Of a stretch of 64,000 nucleotides of DNA, positions 25,813 to 57,880 are shown piece by piece. The translations under genes and the position numbers were made by a program. Numbering within the stretch: position 1 is the stretch's first letter; every line of letters begins with the position of its first letter. The notes below the pieces were generated by a model. That model ran no database searches. It had not been told where the DNA came from and worked only from the letters and a program-made list of their open reading frames with translations. The DNA comes from Alkalihalobacillus sp. FSL W8-0930 (GTDB taxonomy: Bacteria > Bacillota > Bacilli > Bacillales > Bacillaceae_D). The DNA lies in the NCBI GenBank assembly GCA_037965595.1, contig CP150183.1, positions 2,790,001 through 2,854,000 on the forward strand, written 5' to 3'.

Positions 25813-27069
25813 ATGTTTGATGTAATCGTAATAGGGGGCGGACCTTCTGGCTTGATGGCCTCAGTCGCTGCTGCAGAGCATGGAGCCCGCGTTCTCTTAA
25901 TAGATAAAGGAAATAAACTAGGCCGTAAGTTAGCCATTTCGGGTGGTGGTCGCTGTAATGTCACAAACCGAATGGAACGTAAGCAGCTAATAGAGCATAT
26001 TCCTGGTAACGGGAAATTTATGCATAGTCCTTTTGCTACCTTTGATAATGAGAATATCATTGAATTCTTTGAAGGGCTAGGAATCGAGTTAAAAGAGGAA
26101 GACCGGGGACGGATGTTTCCGATTAATGACAAGGCGCAAACTGTTGTTGATACGTTGTTGCGTCGGATTCGGAAACTAAATGTAACCATCTGGACAGACT
26201 CAGCAGTGAAAACCATTGATTATAAAGATGGTCATGTACATGCTGTAAAGTTATTGGATGGTCAGGTTCTTGAAACACGTTCGATCATCGTTGCAACTGG
26301 AGGCAAATCGGTGCCCCATACGGGATCAACAGGAGATGGGTATCCTTGGGCCCAAAAGGCTGGACATACGATTACTGAACTCTATCCAACCGAGGTACCA
26401 ATCACATCACAAGATCCATTCATAAAGGGTAAAGTCCTTCAGGGTCTCTCTGTTCGTGAAATAGAGCTATCTGTCATTAATCCAAAAGGAAAAATAATTA
26501 AAACCCATGAAGGCGATATGATCTTTACTCACTTTGGTGTATCTGGTCCAGCAGCCTTGCGCTGTAGTCAATATGTGGTTAAAGCGTTAAAGAAATTTGA
26601 CGTGCCATCGATTGAACTGCGTCTTGATTTGTTTCCTGCAAAATCCAGTGAAGACCTTTTTCAAGAACTGTGGAAGCTCGTGAAGGCAGAACCGAAAAAG
26701 CAATTAAAGAATGTTCTAAAAGGTGTTACACAGGAACGAATGCTATTGTATTTGTATGAGCTTCATTCCATTAACGCCGAAGCAACATGTGCGAACATCT
26801 CTCATGAAGTCTTGCGTCAGCTTGCAAATACGATGAAGCAGTTTTCTATCCAAGCAACCGGTACACTCTCCATCGAAAAAGCTTTTGTAACGGGCGGCGG
26901 GGTGTCCGTTAAGGAAATTGAACCAAAAACCATGCACTCTAAAAAAGCAGAAGGACTCTACTTCTGTGGAGAAGTGCTTGATATTCACGGCTACACAGGT
27001 GGGTACAACATTACCTGTGCCTTCTCAACAGGCTACACAGCAGGAAAATCAGCTGCAGAACGAGAGTAA
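25813..27069 (+). CDS. ytfP: HI0933/BaiN-family FAD-dependent oxidoreductase (YtfP)
   Basis: A 418-residue flavoprotein. The N-terminal dinucleotide motif [19 protein letters not shown] (residues 6-24) binds [17 protein letters not shown] and the C-terminal [15 protein letters not shown] are signatures of the HI0933 family. Function of the B. subtilis counterpart is unproven. RBS AAGGAG lies 6 bases before the ATG. Monocistronic, ending at a strong terminator. Confidence 0.9.
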
Positions 27070-27169
27070 AAACAACCTAAAGATAGAGGATAAGATCTGA
27101 AAGGGAGATACGATCCACTATTATATGAGTGAATATATCAAGATTCATTCATAATTAAAACTAATAGAA

Positions 27170-27210
27170 AAAGACAAATGATTTCTTCAAATCATTTGTC
27201 TTTCTTTTTT
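27170..27210 (+). terminator. rho-independent terminator after ytfP
   Basis: AAAGACAAATGATTT and its perfect 15-base complement with a CTTC loop, followed by CTTTTTT. Confidence 0.92.
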
Positions 27211-27220
27211 CTATCTAATT

Positions 27221-27290
27221 AGCGGAAGGAGAACCCGAGACTCCTACGGAACAGAACGCGGTGAAGACACTGTAGCGGATTCATTCCGCT
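27221..27290. repeat. short GC-rich dispersed-repeat remnant
   Basis: This 70-base block between the converging ytfP and leuS genes is bounded by the inverted repeats AGCGGAA and TTCCGCT. Inside are GAGACTCCTACGGAACAG and GTGAAGACACTGTAGCGG. This wording resembles GC-rich dispersed repeats I recall from many Bacillus genomes (GAGACTCCTGCGGGAACAG type). It looks degenerate. The match is from memory, not a search. Confidence 0.55.
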
Positions 27291-27333: not shown

Positions 27334-29754
27334 TTACCCTACAACAATATTGACTAACTTCCCTGGTACAGCAATCACTTTTCGAACTTGTTTGTCAGCA
27401 ATCGCCTGTTCAACGGTCTCATCTGCACGGGCAAGCTCTTCCATTTGCTCACGTGTTGCATCCGCTGGAATAACAAGCTTTGTTTTTAGCTTTCCATTCA
27501 CTTGAACAACGATTTCGATTTCGTTCTCTACAAGCTTCGACTCATCAAATGTTGGCCATGCTTCATACGTAATCGTATCCGTGTGACCTAGCTTCGACCA
27601 AAGCTCCTCGGCTAAGTGAGGCGCAATTGGAGAAAGGATTTTCACAAACCCTTCCATTTGATCTTTAGGTAAGACCTCTTGTTTATAAGCCTCATTAATG
27701 TAGACCATCATTTGAGAGATTCCTACGTTAAAGCGAAGCTCCGTAAAGTCCTCTGTAACCTTTTTAATCGTTTGATGATACACACGTGTTAACGTTTCAG
27801 ATCCTTCGGCTTCGCGAATCACTGGACTTAAGTCTCCAGATACTTCTTCAATGAACAATCTCCAGATCCGTTCAAGGAAACGACGTGAACCATCTAATCC
27901 GTTCGTTGACCAAGCAATGGTCCCATCAAGTGGCCCCATAAACATTTCATATAAACGTAATGTGTCCGCTCCATGTGATTTGATAACATCATCCGGATTC
28001 ACAACATTTCCTTTTGACTTACTCATCTTCTCGTTGTTCTCTCCTAGAATCATCCCTTGGTTATATAAACGCTGAAATGGTTCTTTTGTAGGAACAGCAC
28101 CGATATCATACAAGAATTTATGCCAGAAGCGCGCATACAATAAGTGAAGAACAGCGTGCTCTTGACCACCAATGTACATATCTACTGGTAACCATTCCTT
28201 TAAGATCTCAGGATCAGCTAGTGCTTCTGAGTTATCTGGATCAAGATAACGAAGGTAATACCAGCAGCTACCTGCCCATTGCGGCATCGTATTTGTTTCT
28301 CTACGGCCTTTCATGCCAGTATTCGGATCTGTTACTTCTAACCATTCTGTTGCATTCGCAAGTGGTGACTCACCCGCTCCAGACGGCTTAATCTCTTCCA
28401 TTTCAGGTAGTACGAGTGGAAGCTGATCTTCAGGAACCGTTGTTGAGGTACCATCTTCCCAATGAATAATCGGAATGGGTTCTCCCCAGTAACGTTGACG
28501 GCTGAACAGCCAGTCGCGAAGACGATACGTGACCTTTTTAGTCCCTACTTCTTTTTCTTCTAGCCAAGCAATTGCTTTTTGAATCGCTTCTTCTTTTCCT
28601 AGTCCATCAAGGAAATCAGAGTTTACATGCTCCCCGTCTCCTGTATACGCTTCTGTATCGATGTTTCCACCGGCAACGACTTCACGAATTGGTAAAGAGA
28701 AGGCTGTGGCAAATTCAAAATCACGCTCATCATGAGCAGGTACAGCCATAATCGCACCCGTACCATAGCTTACTAACACATAATCAGCAATCCAGACAGG
28801 AATCTTTTCTCCATTGATTGGATTAATCGCATAGGCTCCTGTGAACGCGCCTGATTTCTCTTTAGAAAGCTCTGTACGCTCAAGATCACTTTTCGTTGCG
28901 ACTTTCTTTTGATACGCTTCAATCTCGTCCTTTTGATCAGCTGTTGTGATCGTTGAAACAAGCTTATGCTCTGGTGCTAAGACCATATAGGTTGCACCGA
29001 ATAACGTATCAGGACGTGTCGTAAACACAGAAATCACATCATCAAAGCCATCGATTGCAAAGTCAACCTCAGCCCCTTCAGAACGGCCAATCCAGTTACG
29101 CTGCATATCTTTTAAGTTTTCAGGCCAATCAAGATCATCTAAGTCTTCAAGTAAGCGGTCCGCATACTTTGTAATACGCAGTACCCACTGTCTCATTGGA
29201 CGACGCTCTACAGGGTGTCCCCCGCGCTCACTGACTCCATCAACAATCTCTTCATTCGCTAGAACTGTTCCGAGTGCAGGGCACCAATTTACAGCCACTT
29301 CATCAACATAAGCTAGACCTTTTTCATACAATTTAATGAAGATCCACTGTGTCCATTTATAGTAATTAGGATCCGTTGTATCAACTTCACGATCCCAATC
29401 GTAGGAGAATCCAAGCTCCTTAATTTGTCTACGGAACGTGTTAATGTTTAGTTGAGTAAATGCTGCTGGAGCATTTCCTGTATCAATTGCATATTGCTCT
29501 GCTGGAAGTCCAAACGCATCCCAACCCATTGGATGCATCACTTCATAGCCCTGCATCCGTTTCATTCTTGATAAGATATCAGTTGCTGTCATCCCCTCTG
29601 GATGACCAACATGAAGCCCCGCACCTGATGGATAAGGGAACATATCTAACGCGTAATATTTTGGCTTATCACTCTTAGTGTTTGTTTTAAATGTTTTATT
29701 TTCTTCCCAGTGTGCTTGCCACTTTGGTTCGATCTTATTATGTGAAAAAGACAT
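27334..29754 (-). CDS. leuS: leucyl-tRNA synthetase
   Basis: Charges tRNA-Leu. The 806-residue class Ia synthetase has HVGH at residues 48-51 (HIGH motif), an inserted editing domain with the Thr-rich [19 protein letters not shown], and KMSKSKGN near residue 578. The start has AGGAGG seven bases upstream. The gene sits behind a leucine T-box leader and a strong promoter. Confidence 0.98.
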
Positions 29755-29820: not shown

Positions 29821-30098
29821 AAAAAACTCCCGTCCCTAATAACATGTTGCATTATCAGGGACGAGAGTTAGCATCTATGCTTATCCCGCGGTACCACCCA
29901 GATTAACAGAGACTTATCCTCTGTTCACTCTTTACACAAATAACGGTCGTGACCCGTTGAAGGCTACTCCAATTCACCCTCAAGACTCGGAGGCGAGTTC
30001 GATGGAACTGTTCAATTGGCTTGCACCTTCCGCCAACTCTCTGTATTCCCAGATATCATCTACTAGTCCTCGTTAACATCAACATCTCATATGAACTT
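29821..30098 (-). ncRNA. T-box leader of leuS (Leu specifier CTC)
   Basis: The minus strand shows the conserved T-box sequence GGGTGGTACCGCGG (plus positions 29886-29899), an upstream stem I with AGAGAGTT and a GAACTCGCC specifier loop holding the leucine codon CTC (29995-29997), and a terminator helix (GTCCCTGATAA with TTATTAGGGAC) ending in TTTTTT at 29821-29826. Uncharged tRNA-Leu pairs with specifier and T-box to favour readthrough. The region from here to the leuS start (29755-29820) holds only the RBS. Confidence 0.95.
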
Positions 30099-36612: not shown

Positions 36613-36776
36613 AAAAAACCCTTCTCCTCTATATTGAGGAAAAGGGTTGAAATGTTGTCCTTTAACCTCTTATCGTTCAAGGCAATTGCCTTGCAGGTTA
36701 GCACCTTTCTACTTTTTCTAAAGTAGTGGTTGCTGGGCTTCACTGGGCCTGTCCCTCCGCCGGCTCTCCGATAAGA
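36613..36776 (-). ncRNA. SAM-I (S-box) riboswitch of metK
   Basis: On the minus strand: CTTATCGGAGAG, GGCGGAGGGA, GGCCC-x-TGAAGCCC-x-GCAACC and AAGGTGCTAA, the classical S-box core, followed by a terminator (AACCCTTTTCCTC with GAGGAGAAGGGTT then TTTTTT at 36613). SAM binding should stop transcription before metK. Confidence 0.96.
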
Positions 36777-36790
36777 TCCGTTCGCCATGA

Positions 36791-41114: not shown

Positions 41115-41189
41115 AGATTCTCCTCCTTTTCTACATACTCCGACTCTTAGTATGAGGCGATCCCACATATCTATGCACACTCAAAAAAA

Positions 41190-41358
41190 GAAGCGGGCAG
41201 GACATAACATTAAAGTAGCGAGTCTAACACGAGTGAAGCAAATAATCCGCTACAGGAGAATCCCTCGCTTGTTCAAATAAAATCACGAAAGGCGAATGAT
41301 TCTGCAATCGAATCATTCGCCTTTTCAGATTGATTTTTAGTTTTGTCCCAGCCGCTTC
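41190..41358. repeat. MITE-like interspersed element, copy 1
   Basis: A 169-base element with imperfect terminal inverted repeats: left GAAGCGGGCAGGACATAAC and the complement of the right end GAAGCGGCTGGGACAAAAC agree at 15 of 19 bases. It contains ATCCGCTACAGGAGAAT, CCTCGCTTGTT and a perfect hairpin AAAGGCGAATGATTC / GAATCATTCGCCTTT. It is homologous over its whole length to the element at 56961-57131. No ORF of note. The hairpin may end transcription of the YwpF-like gene. Confidence 0.82.
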
Positions 41359-41375
41359 TATCGTGCATGTATCCT

Positions 41376-48363: not shown

Positions 48364-48396
48364 AAGAGCCCCCTCTGATTTGAAGGGGGCTCTTTG
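48364..48396 (+). terminator. rho-independent terminator of dgk-dck
   Basis: AAGAGCCCCCT and AGGGGGCTCTT form a perfect 11-bp stem. The right arm runs directly into the first unit of the 20-bp tandem array. Confidence 0.9.
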
Positions 48397-48570
48397 TTGA
48401 TTCTGTTCTCTCTTTGTTGATTCCAGCTTCTCTTTGTTGATTTCGCTCTCTCTTTGTTGATTTCGCCCTCTCTTTGTTGATTTCGCTCTCTCTTTGTTGA
48501 TTTCGCCTTCTCTCCGTCGATTCCGCTATCTCTCCGTCGATCCCGCTATCTCTCCGTCGATCCCGCTATC
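48391..48570. repeat. nine-copy 20-bp tandem repeat
   Basis: Nine exact-length 20-base units: two TCTTTGTTGATTC-type, four TCTTTGTTGATTTCGC-type, then three TCTCCGTCGATCCCGCTATC-type. No spacers, no partial indels. The first unit overlaps the dck terminator and the last contains the stop codon of the Mrr-like gene. Confidence 0.95.
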
Positions 48571-56960: not shown

Positions 56961-57131
56961 AAACGAGGGTGAGACATAACTTGATGTGGCTAGAAAAACA
57001 CGAACATAGCACCAGATCCGCTACAGGAGAATTCCTCGCTTGTTAAAATATAAACACAAATGGCGAATGATTCTTTATTTGAATCATTCGCCATTTTCGT
57101 ATTGATTTTTTAGTTATATCCCACGCTTTTT
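56961..57131. repeat. MITE-like interspersed element, copy 2
   Basis: About 170 bases, homologous to copy 1: shared GACATAAC end, ATCCGCTACAGGAGAAT, CCTCGCTTGTT, and hairpin TGGCGAATGATTC / GAATCATTCGCCA. Left AAACGAGGGTGAGACATAAC and the complement of the right end match at 14 of 19 bases. The right end overlaps the 3' end of the PAP2 gene and provides its last codons and stop. Confidence 0.82.
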
Positions 57132-57754
57132 TTGTGTCTGTTTATGCGATTGAGTATGGTGATAGACAGCATAATCCAGGTTAAGCTGAATAATGTTCCT
57201 CCTAGAATATCTGTTAAGAAATGAACACCTAAATACATTCGGCTGATCCCCATCAATACAAAAAGAATAAAGGCGATGACGATTGAAAGCCTCCGCACTA
57301 TTCTTCGATCTACATAATGGTAAATTAAATAAATGCACAAGCCACCAAACGATACAGCGGCCATTGTGTGTCCACTGGGAAAGCTATAGCCTGGTTGCTC
57401 GATGAGAAAATTAATTTCTGGTCTAGCTCTTCCTATCCATTCTTTCAATGTCATATTTAAAATAGCTGTTCCCCCCATGATCAACAAAGGAGGCAGAACG
57501 GCAGTCCATCTTCTTTGCCAGATGGCTAAGAATACGATAAGCAGTAAGGTCAACGCCGCAATGACTTTTGTGCCACCTAACCAGGCAAGAAAGAGCATAA
57601 AAGAGGTAATCCAATCAGCCCTTACGTTAGGAACGTGCTCTACAATAAAAACATCAAATTGTTGAAAAAAAGAGTGTTCATATGTAAAAGCCAATAAAAT
57701 GAACAAACTAAGAGAGATCAAACTTAGACAAAGCAACATCTTATTATGGTTCAT
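57110..57754 (-). CDS. PAP2-family phosphatase (phosphatidylglycerophosphatase/undecaprenyl-PP phosphatase type)
   Basis: A 214-residue membrane protein with six helices and the three acid-phosphatase motifs: KEWIGRARP, PSGH (in YSFPSGHTMAA) and SRMYLGVHFLTD. Likely dephosphorylates a lipid phosphate such as undecaprenyl pyrophosphate or PGP outside the membrane. The start is ATG at 57754 with AAGGAG six bases upstream; an earlier frame is open but lacks an RBS. The C-terminal KKSVGYN is encoded by the interspersed element. Confidence 0.87.
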   Translation of the reverse strand: MNHNKMLLCLSLISLSLFILLAFTYEHSFFQQFDVFIVEHVPNVRADWITSFMLFLAWLGGTKVIAALTLLLIVFLAIWQRRWTAVLPPLLIMGGTAILNMTLKEWIGRARPEINFLIEQPGYSFPSGHTMAAVSFGGLCIYLIYHYVDRRIVRRLSIVIAFILFVLMGISRMYLGVHFLTDILGGTLFSLTWIMLSITILNRINRHKKSVGYN

Positions 57755-57880
57755 CAGTTTCTCCTTTTCCATCGTGAATGAACTTATTTTACAGATATCT
57801 GCTCTGCTTGACAATGAATAGCTTAAAAAGCTTGCTATATGTTTTCTTTATATAATAACTGGGTAGTTAGTAAAAGAAAG

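Follow-up and report, generated by a model that had tools for sequence, protein, structure and literature searches.

The closest described systems are IS1272 and TnSha1, members of the IS1182 family from staphylococci. Furi et al. 2016 (PMC4923244) found these elements in hairpins, several of which were confirmed terminators; the hairpin had been deleted in part, the target was not duplicated, and one terminator was hit by TnSha1 in both orientations. A stem-loop replacement was proposed by Wan et al. 2017 (PMC5678879). Another bacterial MITE is MITEAba12 of Acinetobacter, whose authors screened for target duplications and stated that it has no predicted Rho-independent terminators (PMC6382973).

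The element described in this work is, like MITEAba12, a bacterial MITE, and it differs in that it carries a proposed substitute terminator. It resembles IS1272 and TnSha1 in having hairpin or inverted-repeat targets that include terminators, in the loss of part or all of the hairpin and in the absence of duplication. However, IS1272 and TnSha1 encode a transposase, whereas this element has none. It is 150-260 bp in size, bears a hairpin, to which the long form adds a structured core, and is present in many dozens of copies. The comparison of genomes carried out here establishes a multicopy family with empty sites in a sister species and insertion accompanied by loss of the terminator hairpin.

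Copies and forms of the element

The window analysed is a stretch of 64,000 nucleotides of the genome of Alkalihalobacillus sp. FSL W8-0930 (G000, one contig of 3,885,014 bp), at contig positions 2790001-2854000. An earlier note, made from the sequence of the window, had described two blocks sharing named motifs, and these motifs were recovered at the same positions, far above chance (Table 1). The blocks had been regarded as a pair with many substitutions; copies 1 and 2 are indeed 79% identical between the fixed ends, but they are not just two, as a third copy lies in the window and many others were found in the same genome. The third copy is truncated: the left end is gone, and what is left comprises the core's right half, a hairpin that has diverged and the right side. 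It is flanked by the convergent frames 25813-27069 (+) and 27334-29754 (-).

Table 1. Position and description of the element copies, their hairpins and the terminator remnants in the window, with the gene junctions occupied in opposite orientation in two species.
Feature	Position	Strand	Description
Copy 1, short form	41196..41353	+	From GGCAGGACATAAC (41196-41208) to GTTTTGTCCCAGCC (41340-41353); missing at the equivalent place of G001
Copy 2, short form	56967..57126	+	Outer limits approximate; GAGACATAAC (56971-56980), GTTATATCCCACGC (57113-57126); missing in G001
Third copy, truncated	27150..27288	-	Profile match to model positions 101-245
Copy 1 hairpin	41291..41325	+	GGCGAATGATTC-TGCAATC-GAATCATTCGCC, then TTTT; proposed substitute terminator
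Copy 2 hairpin	57062..57092	+	GGCGAATGATTC-TTTATTT-GAATCATTCGCC
Remnant left arm of the replaced terminator, site 1	41183..41195	+	A-tract 41183-41189, GAAGCG 41190-41195; same bases in G001
Remnant right arm, site 1	41353..41359	+	CGCTTCT, first base shared with the element end; G001 has CGCTTCTTT
Gene junctions with opposite orientation (G000/G001)			L046/L207, L037/L208, L044/L214, L016/L215, L030/L193

A search of G000 with copy 1 yielded at least 80 matching pieces, the other copies having E values down to 2.5e-56. A profile built from long copies was run over the window and 58 further stretches, and the 62 matches located correspond to 61 copies and one isolated hairpin. The 3.9-Mb genome therefore contains at least 61 copies, a lower bound because six additional homologous stretches are known from the search listings alone and 17 end-motif sites are located apart from any listed copy, two of them being probably the two ends of one copy, and because each genome search scored 40 stretches at most. 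Both ends were recognized in 51 of the 62 matches. Among these full copies, 17 belong to a short form (about 150 bp; 121-162 bp between the fixed ends) and 34 to a long form (about 250 bp; 241-263 bp between the fixed ends). The identity of each full copy to its nearest neighbour has a median of 88% and a maximum of 92.7%, which fits the previous proposal of old insertions as far as G000 is concerned.

The left part of the consensus consists of an A-tract, GAGGC(T/G)GGGACATAAC, a linker and then, in the long form only, the core. The right part comprises GCTTGTTC, the hairpin GGCGAATGATTC-loop-GAATCATTCGCC, TTTT and TTGATTTTTAGTTATGTCCCAGCCTCTTT. About 90 bp are lacking in the short form, and in the long form this stretch is bounded by the similar sequences CCGCTACAGGAGAATCCCTCGC and CCGTAGGAGTCTCGGGTTCTCCCTCCGC. 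The element is thus short (121-263 bp between the fixed ends in the 51 copies), multicopy and devoid of a transposase gene, as corresponds to a MITE. Two of its features go beyond the earlier note, namely the replacement of a terminator-hairpin target and the additional structured module found in the long form.

Empty sites and probable replacement of terminators

Both window copies are absent from the sister species G001, so that the search for empty sites that the earlier note had advised was successful at the two positions. This species is probably A. gibsonii, judging from a 60-base stretch common to a named record (L185) and the G001 locus. A scan of named genomes with the neighbouring protein gave eight loci, A. 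gibsonii at 96% and seven Paenibacillus at 53-55%, and the same kind of scan with a 29-base element motif returned 0 stretches. At site 1, G001 has AAAAAAAGAAGCGATAAGACCATGGTCTCTCGCTTCTTT, and other hairpins are found at that place in G002, G003 and G004; at site 2, G001 has AAAACACCCAACTATAAGTCGGGTGTTTT. The sequences GAAGCG (41190-41195) and CGCTTC (41353-41358) that border copy 1 were assigned to the remnant of a terminator stem because they are present in G001 without the element. Hence, the imperfect terminal inverted repeats previously attributed to copy 1 included, in their outermost part, bases that belong to the terminator.

Gene-end stretches from about 35 of the 42 usable copies were searched in G001, with 36 matches and loci for 30 of them. 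Together with the two window sites, 32 sites were compared between G000 and G001, of which 19 are empty in G001, 10 are occupied in both species and 3 are undecidable (L199, L204 and L221). The mean folding energy over 70 bases was -20.0 kcal/mol for the empty sites, -9.4 kcal/mol for the joined G000 flanks and -10.0 kcal/mol for 114 control stretches taken nearby. A hairpin above a score of 22, a cut-off of our own choice, was present in 14 of the 19 empty sites, in 2 of the 19 joined occupied flanks and in 1 of the 114 controls. The five empty sites below the cut-off are L172, L029, L012, L168 and window site 1, in which the stem is interrupted.

Because a lost hairpin would hardly be rebuilt, we regard the empty state as the ancestral one and place the insertion in the G000 lineage. 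As judged from these comparisons, a palindromic terminator target is replaced upon insertion, without target duplication, as in IS1272. Target-site duplications had been suggested earlier as something to look for; none were seen by eye in the flanks of the 19 empty sites, and they are not expected if the terminator hairpin is replaced. An insertion with duplication of the target site was rejected, since the flanks fit hairpin replacement. The pairing between the left and right flanks of each copy was also considered (13.2 against 12.1 in permuted pairs, the observed value being reached by 69 of 20,000 permutations), and it is barely above the permuted pairs because the outer repeat is mostly consensus. 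It was discarded as sole proof of a palindromic target for being too weak, and the empty sites were used instead.

Gene context of the insertions

The gene context was read from a simple reading-frame caller. The 49 full copies located outside the window were found at 24 convergent, 14 + 9 tandem and 2 divergent junctions, whereas the remaining junctions of this DNA with a length of 20 bp or more are convergent in 12 of 95 cases and divergent in 28 of 95. Convergent junctions are therefore enriched (24/49 versus 12/95, Fisher p 4e-6) and divergent ones depleted (2/49 versus 28/95, p 2e-4). A stop codon is located at 48 bp or less from the element in 43 of the 49 copies, four of these with a slight overlap. 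In the tandem sites, the element is opposed to the gene in 16 of 23 cases, or 18 of 25 when the two window copies are included (p = 0.04).

Within the window, the stop codon (57110-57112) of the frame 57110-57814 (-), presumably a protein resembling a membrane phosphatase, lies inside copy 2, and therefore the insertion reset the end of this protein. A tandem array of units of about 20 bp (CTCTCTTTGTTGATTTCG type) is present at 48390-48570, directly after a terminator-like hairpin between convergent frames, and arrays of this kind occur at many places in both G000 and G001.

Copies could also have been inserted near gene ends regardless of terminators, or selection could have purged all others, with a later decay of the native terminator, made redundant by the hairpin of the element. 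Convergent gene ends are the least harmful places for an insertion, and L015/L201 has kept its terminator next to the element, as this explanation would have it. However, in the majority of the 19 empty sites the conservation of both flanks extends to about 10-25 bases from the element, and the part lost in between is the hairpin. In addition, the mean hairpin score of the joined flanks (14.9) is near that of the controls (12.7), against 28.7 for the empty sites, and hairpin replacement has been reported for IS1182-family members (PMC4923244). Insertion blind to terminators is for these reasons regarded as unlikely.

In the 10 sites occupied in both species, the orientation of the element is the same in five and opposite in the other five (Table 1), one of the latter being degenerate. 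This proportion of opposite orientations is above our own expectation, and both independent hits of the same terminator, of the kind reported for TnSha1, and an inversion in place would explain it.

Ends of the element and a probable autonomous IS1182-family partner

When one mismatch was allowed, the end motif gave 39 hits in G000. In G003, which belongs to the same genus, four IS copies of about 1.84 kb were found with the ends of the element, GGCTGGGACA(A/T)AAC being present at both ends, and with a transposase assigned to NF033551 (E 4e-130). This IS has in common with the element both ends, over about 16 bp, as well as a hairpin that immediately follows the left end. A MITE is expected to have terminal inverted repeats in common with an autonomous IS, and here the IS, of the IS1182 family, belongs to another species of the genus. 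They differ in that the G003 IS has a transposase gene and no core, whereas the element has no transposase gene and, in its long form, bears the core. The three G003 copies that have the same length show 1-4 differences over 1,836 positions, which indicates recent movement of the IS in this genome. Comparison of its insertion points with relatives revealed hairpins nearby, clear for L116 and L117 and loosely anchored for L118 and L119. The Terribacillus plasmid NZ_CP077640 contains an IS1182 with a transposase 82.9% identical to that of G003, the same ends and the same build, likewise without the core; its outer arms are unlike those of the G003 IS, yet they pair with each other.

Searches for PF13751 and NF033551 gave no match in G000, G001, G002 and G004, and a protein search detected one short broken transposase remnant in G002. 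With no IS1182-type transposase found in G000, present-day mobility in this genome is not possible via that route. The transposase with the same ends that the earlier note had pointed to as a further check thus exists in the genus, in G003, but was not found in the genome of the element itself. Of the two possibilities considered in that note, a non-autonomous mobile element and a dispersed RNA hairpin family, the first is favoured by the additional copies, the empty sites and the IS with the same ends.

The element might be mobile by means of a transposase from outside the IS1182 family, considering that the common end is only about 16 bp long, that the four G003 IS copies lack the core, and that a further member of the IS1182 family, whose ends are different (GAGGCCACTGAAAAAG), also contains the core. 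This seems rather improbable to us, as the reversed control of the end motif gave no hits in G000, the G003 IS and the Terribacillus IS1182 both have the two ends and the hairpin beside the left one, and hairpin replacement has been reported for the IS1182 family.

The hairpin of the element

The stretch 41184-41372, which includes copy 1, folds with -60 kcal/mol (z -5.95), and that of copy 2 with -54.4 kcal/mol (z -6.10). A hairpin of the GGCGAATGATTC/GAATCATTCGCC kind, with two substitutions at most per arm, is present in all 51 full copies, and its loop is TGCAATC in 14 copies and TACAATC in 3; another 5 copies have the reverse complement, GATTGTA, and the remainder are variants. In a second genus, eight of the 11 loci read have the same layout, with GGGACA-type ends, a core and a hairpin of different sequence. 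As the place and shape of the hairpin are kept while its sequence differs between species, it most likely acts as a substitute terminator, a prediction derived from the hairpin itself, its position and the shape conserved across species. The terminator scan of the element hairpins found terminator-like sites on the minus strand only (1 site per stretch versus 0.3 and 0.2 in shuffles), and the T-runs 3' of the hairpin are short. The opposed position of the element in most tandem sites gives a weak hint that its minus strand is the better terminator, in agreement with the scan.

A comparison with the covariance models of Rfam 15 revealed no match at the window elements at the gathering score, with sub-threshold hits alone in seven loci, and the identity with a known Rfam RNA family was dropped. 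Elsewhere in the window, a T-box leader (29854-30085, -) and a SAM riboswitch (36667-36777, -), both ordinary, scored above the gathering score.

The structured core of the long form

The long form contains an additional structured core of about 120 bp. The fold of 32 aligned core sequences has 25 consensus pairs, and compensatory changes were observed in 7 of these; one pair, for instance, is A-U in 25 rows, U-A in 5 and C-G in 2. Covariation contributes little to the energy of the fold (-1.34 of -19.42 kcal/mol), and the aligned rows are related. The alignment includes 32 of 33 rows, L075 being omitted because its ends were missed by the motif search. A domesticated RNA or terminator family under selection at fixed places, such as an immobile 3' regulatory RNA, would agree with the good conservation of hairpin and core and with the compensatory changes, but it is very improbable because the positions are not conserved, 19 of 29 decidable sites being empty in the sister species and positions differing despite shared flanking genes, and the ends of the element match those of an IS.

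At two shared sites with the same orientation (L198/L032 and L219/L019), G001 has the long form and G000 the short one. For this reason it is likely that short forms arise by loss of the core in place, although both cases also allow a gain of the core. Other species of the genus have the same core flanked by the different ends GAGGCCACTGAAAAAG, and in G003 a broken IS of the IS1182 family carries it in the interval that separates its left end from the transposase frame. In a search across the wider family, the long element was matched in 16 of 41 genomes (E<=0.001, some only near 5e-4) and in 4 of 7 genera.

The second element family, with GAGGCCACTGAAAAAG ends and the same core, was observed at L081:190-2020, L057-L064, L056 and L066, the member in L081 being a broken IS1182-family IS within another long palindromic repeat. 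This further repeat (L081:101-188 and L081:2295-2412, GCACGCTTTCCGC... / ...GCGGTAAGCGTGCCCCC) seems to be a landing site for GAGGCCACTG elements. In a Kurthia gibsonii plasmid (L274:590-710), a core-like palindrome, judged by eye, is located upstream of an IS1182-family transposase. A leader module of this type may be widespread in IS1182 elements.

Discussion

We infer that a mobile mini-element with IS1182-type ends replaces intrinsic terminators and brings a hairpin of its own, both its movement and its terminating function being deduced from sequence, and we assign to this reading a probability of about 0.83. According to the published model for IS1272, an intrinsic terminator would form a hairpin or cruciform, and the transposase would join the element either to the base of its stem or to a point inside it, with loss of the apex or the whole of the stem. 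Transcription would then be terminated by the hairpin of the element, aided by pairing of the element ends, and the low cost of the insertion for the host would allow copies to gather at gene ends. The core could be a leader structure acquired from a related IS. There it separates the left end from the transposase gene, and it may prevent expression of the transposase by read-through transcription. Short forms would derive from long forms through loss of this core.

Small structured intergenic repeats are also represented by bcr1 in Bacillus cereus and BOX and RUP in pneumococcus, and BOX is modular like the element. As far as is known, their ends and partners differ from those of the element. 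In the titles and abstract openings of the open-licence literature, among the matches listed, neither an IS1182-family MITE nor a terminator-replacing MITE was found. The insertion rule is known for the IS1182 family; a high-copy counterpart that lacks genes and brings its own hairpin was not encountered among the matches listed from the open-licence literature searched.

Intrinsic terminators are usually regarded as features of the host. In this organism many of them have apparently been replaced by a mobile element, and the replacement can be read base by base against the sister species. It could be, although we advance it tentatively and at somewhat less than even odds, that the element is a portable terminator whose life cycle consists in swapping intrinsic terminators of the host for its own hairpin. 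If this were true, unrelated genes, many dozens of them and frequently arranged in convergent pairs, would come to have a common 3'-end structure, formed by the hairpin and, in the long form, by the covarying core as well. Such an exchange would be irreversible and nearly neutral to the host, and it could alter the 3' ends and the decay of many transcripts at once, the inversion in place of whole elements and of hairpin tips being a by-product of the palindromic build. The natural series of empty, short, long and inverted states offers a test of the hairpin-replacing mechanism proposed for IS1272, and raises the question of whether terminators are exchangeable at no cost.
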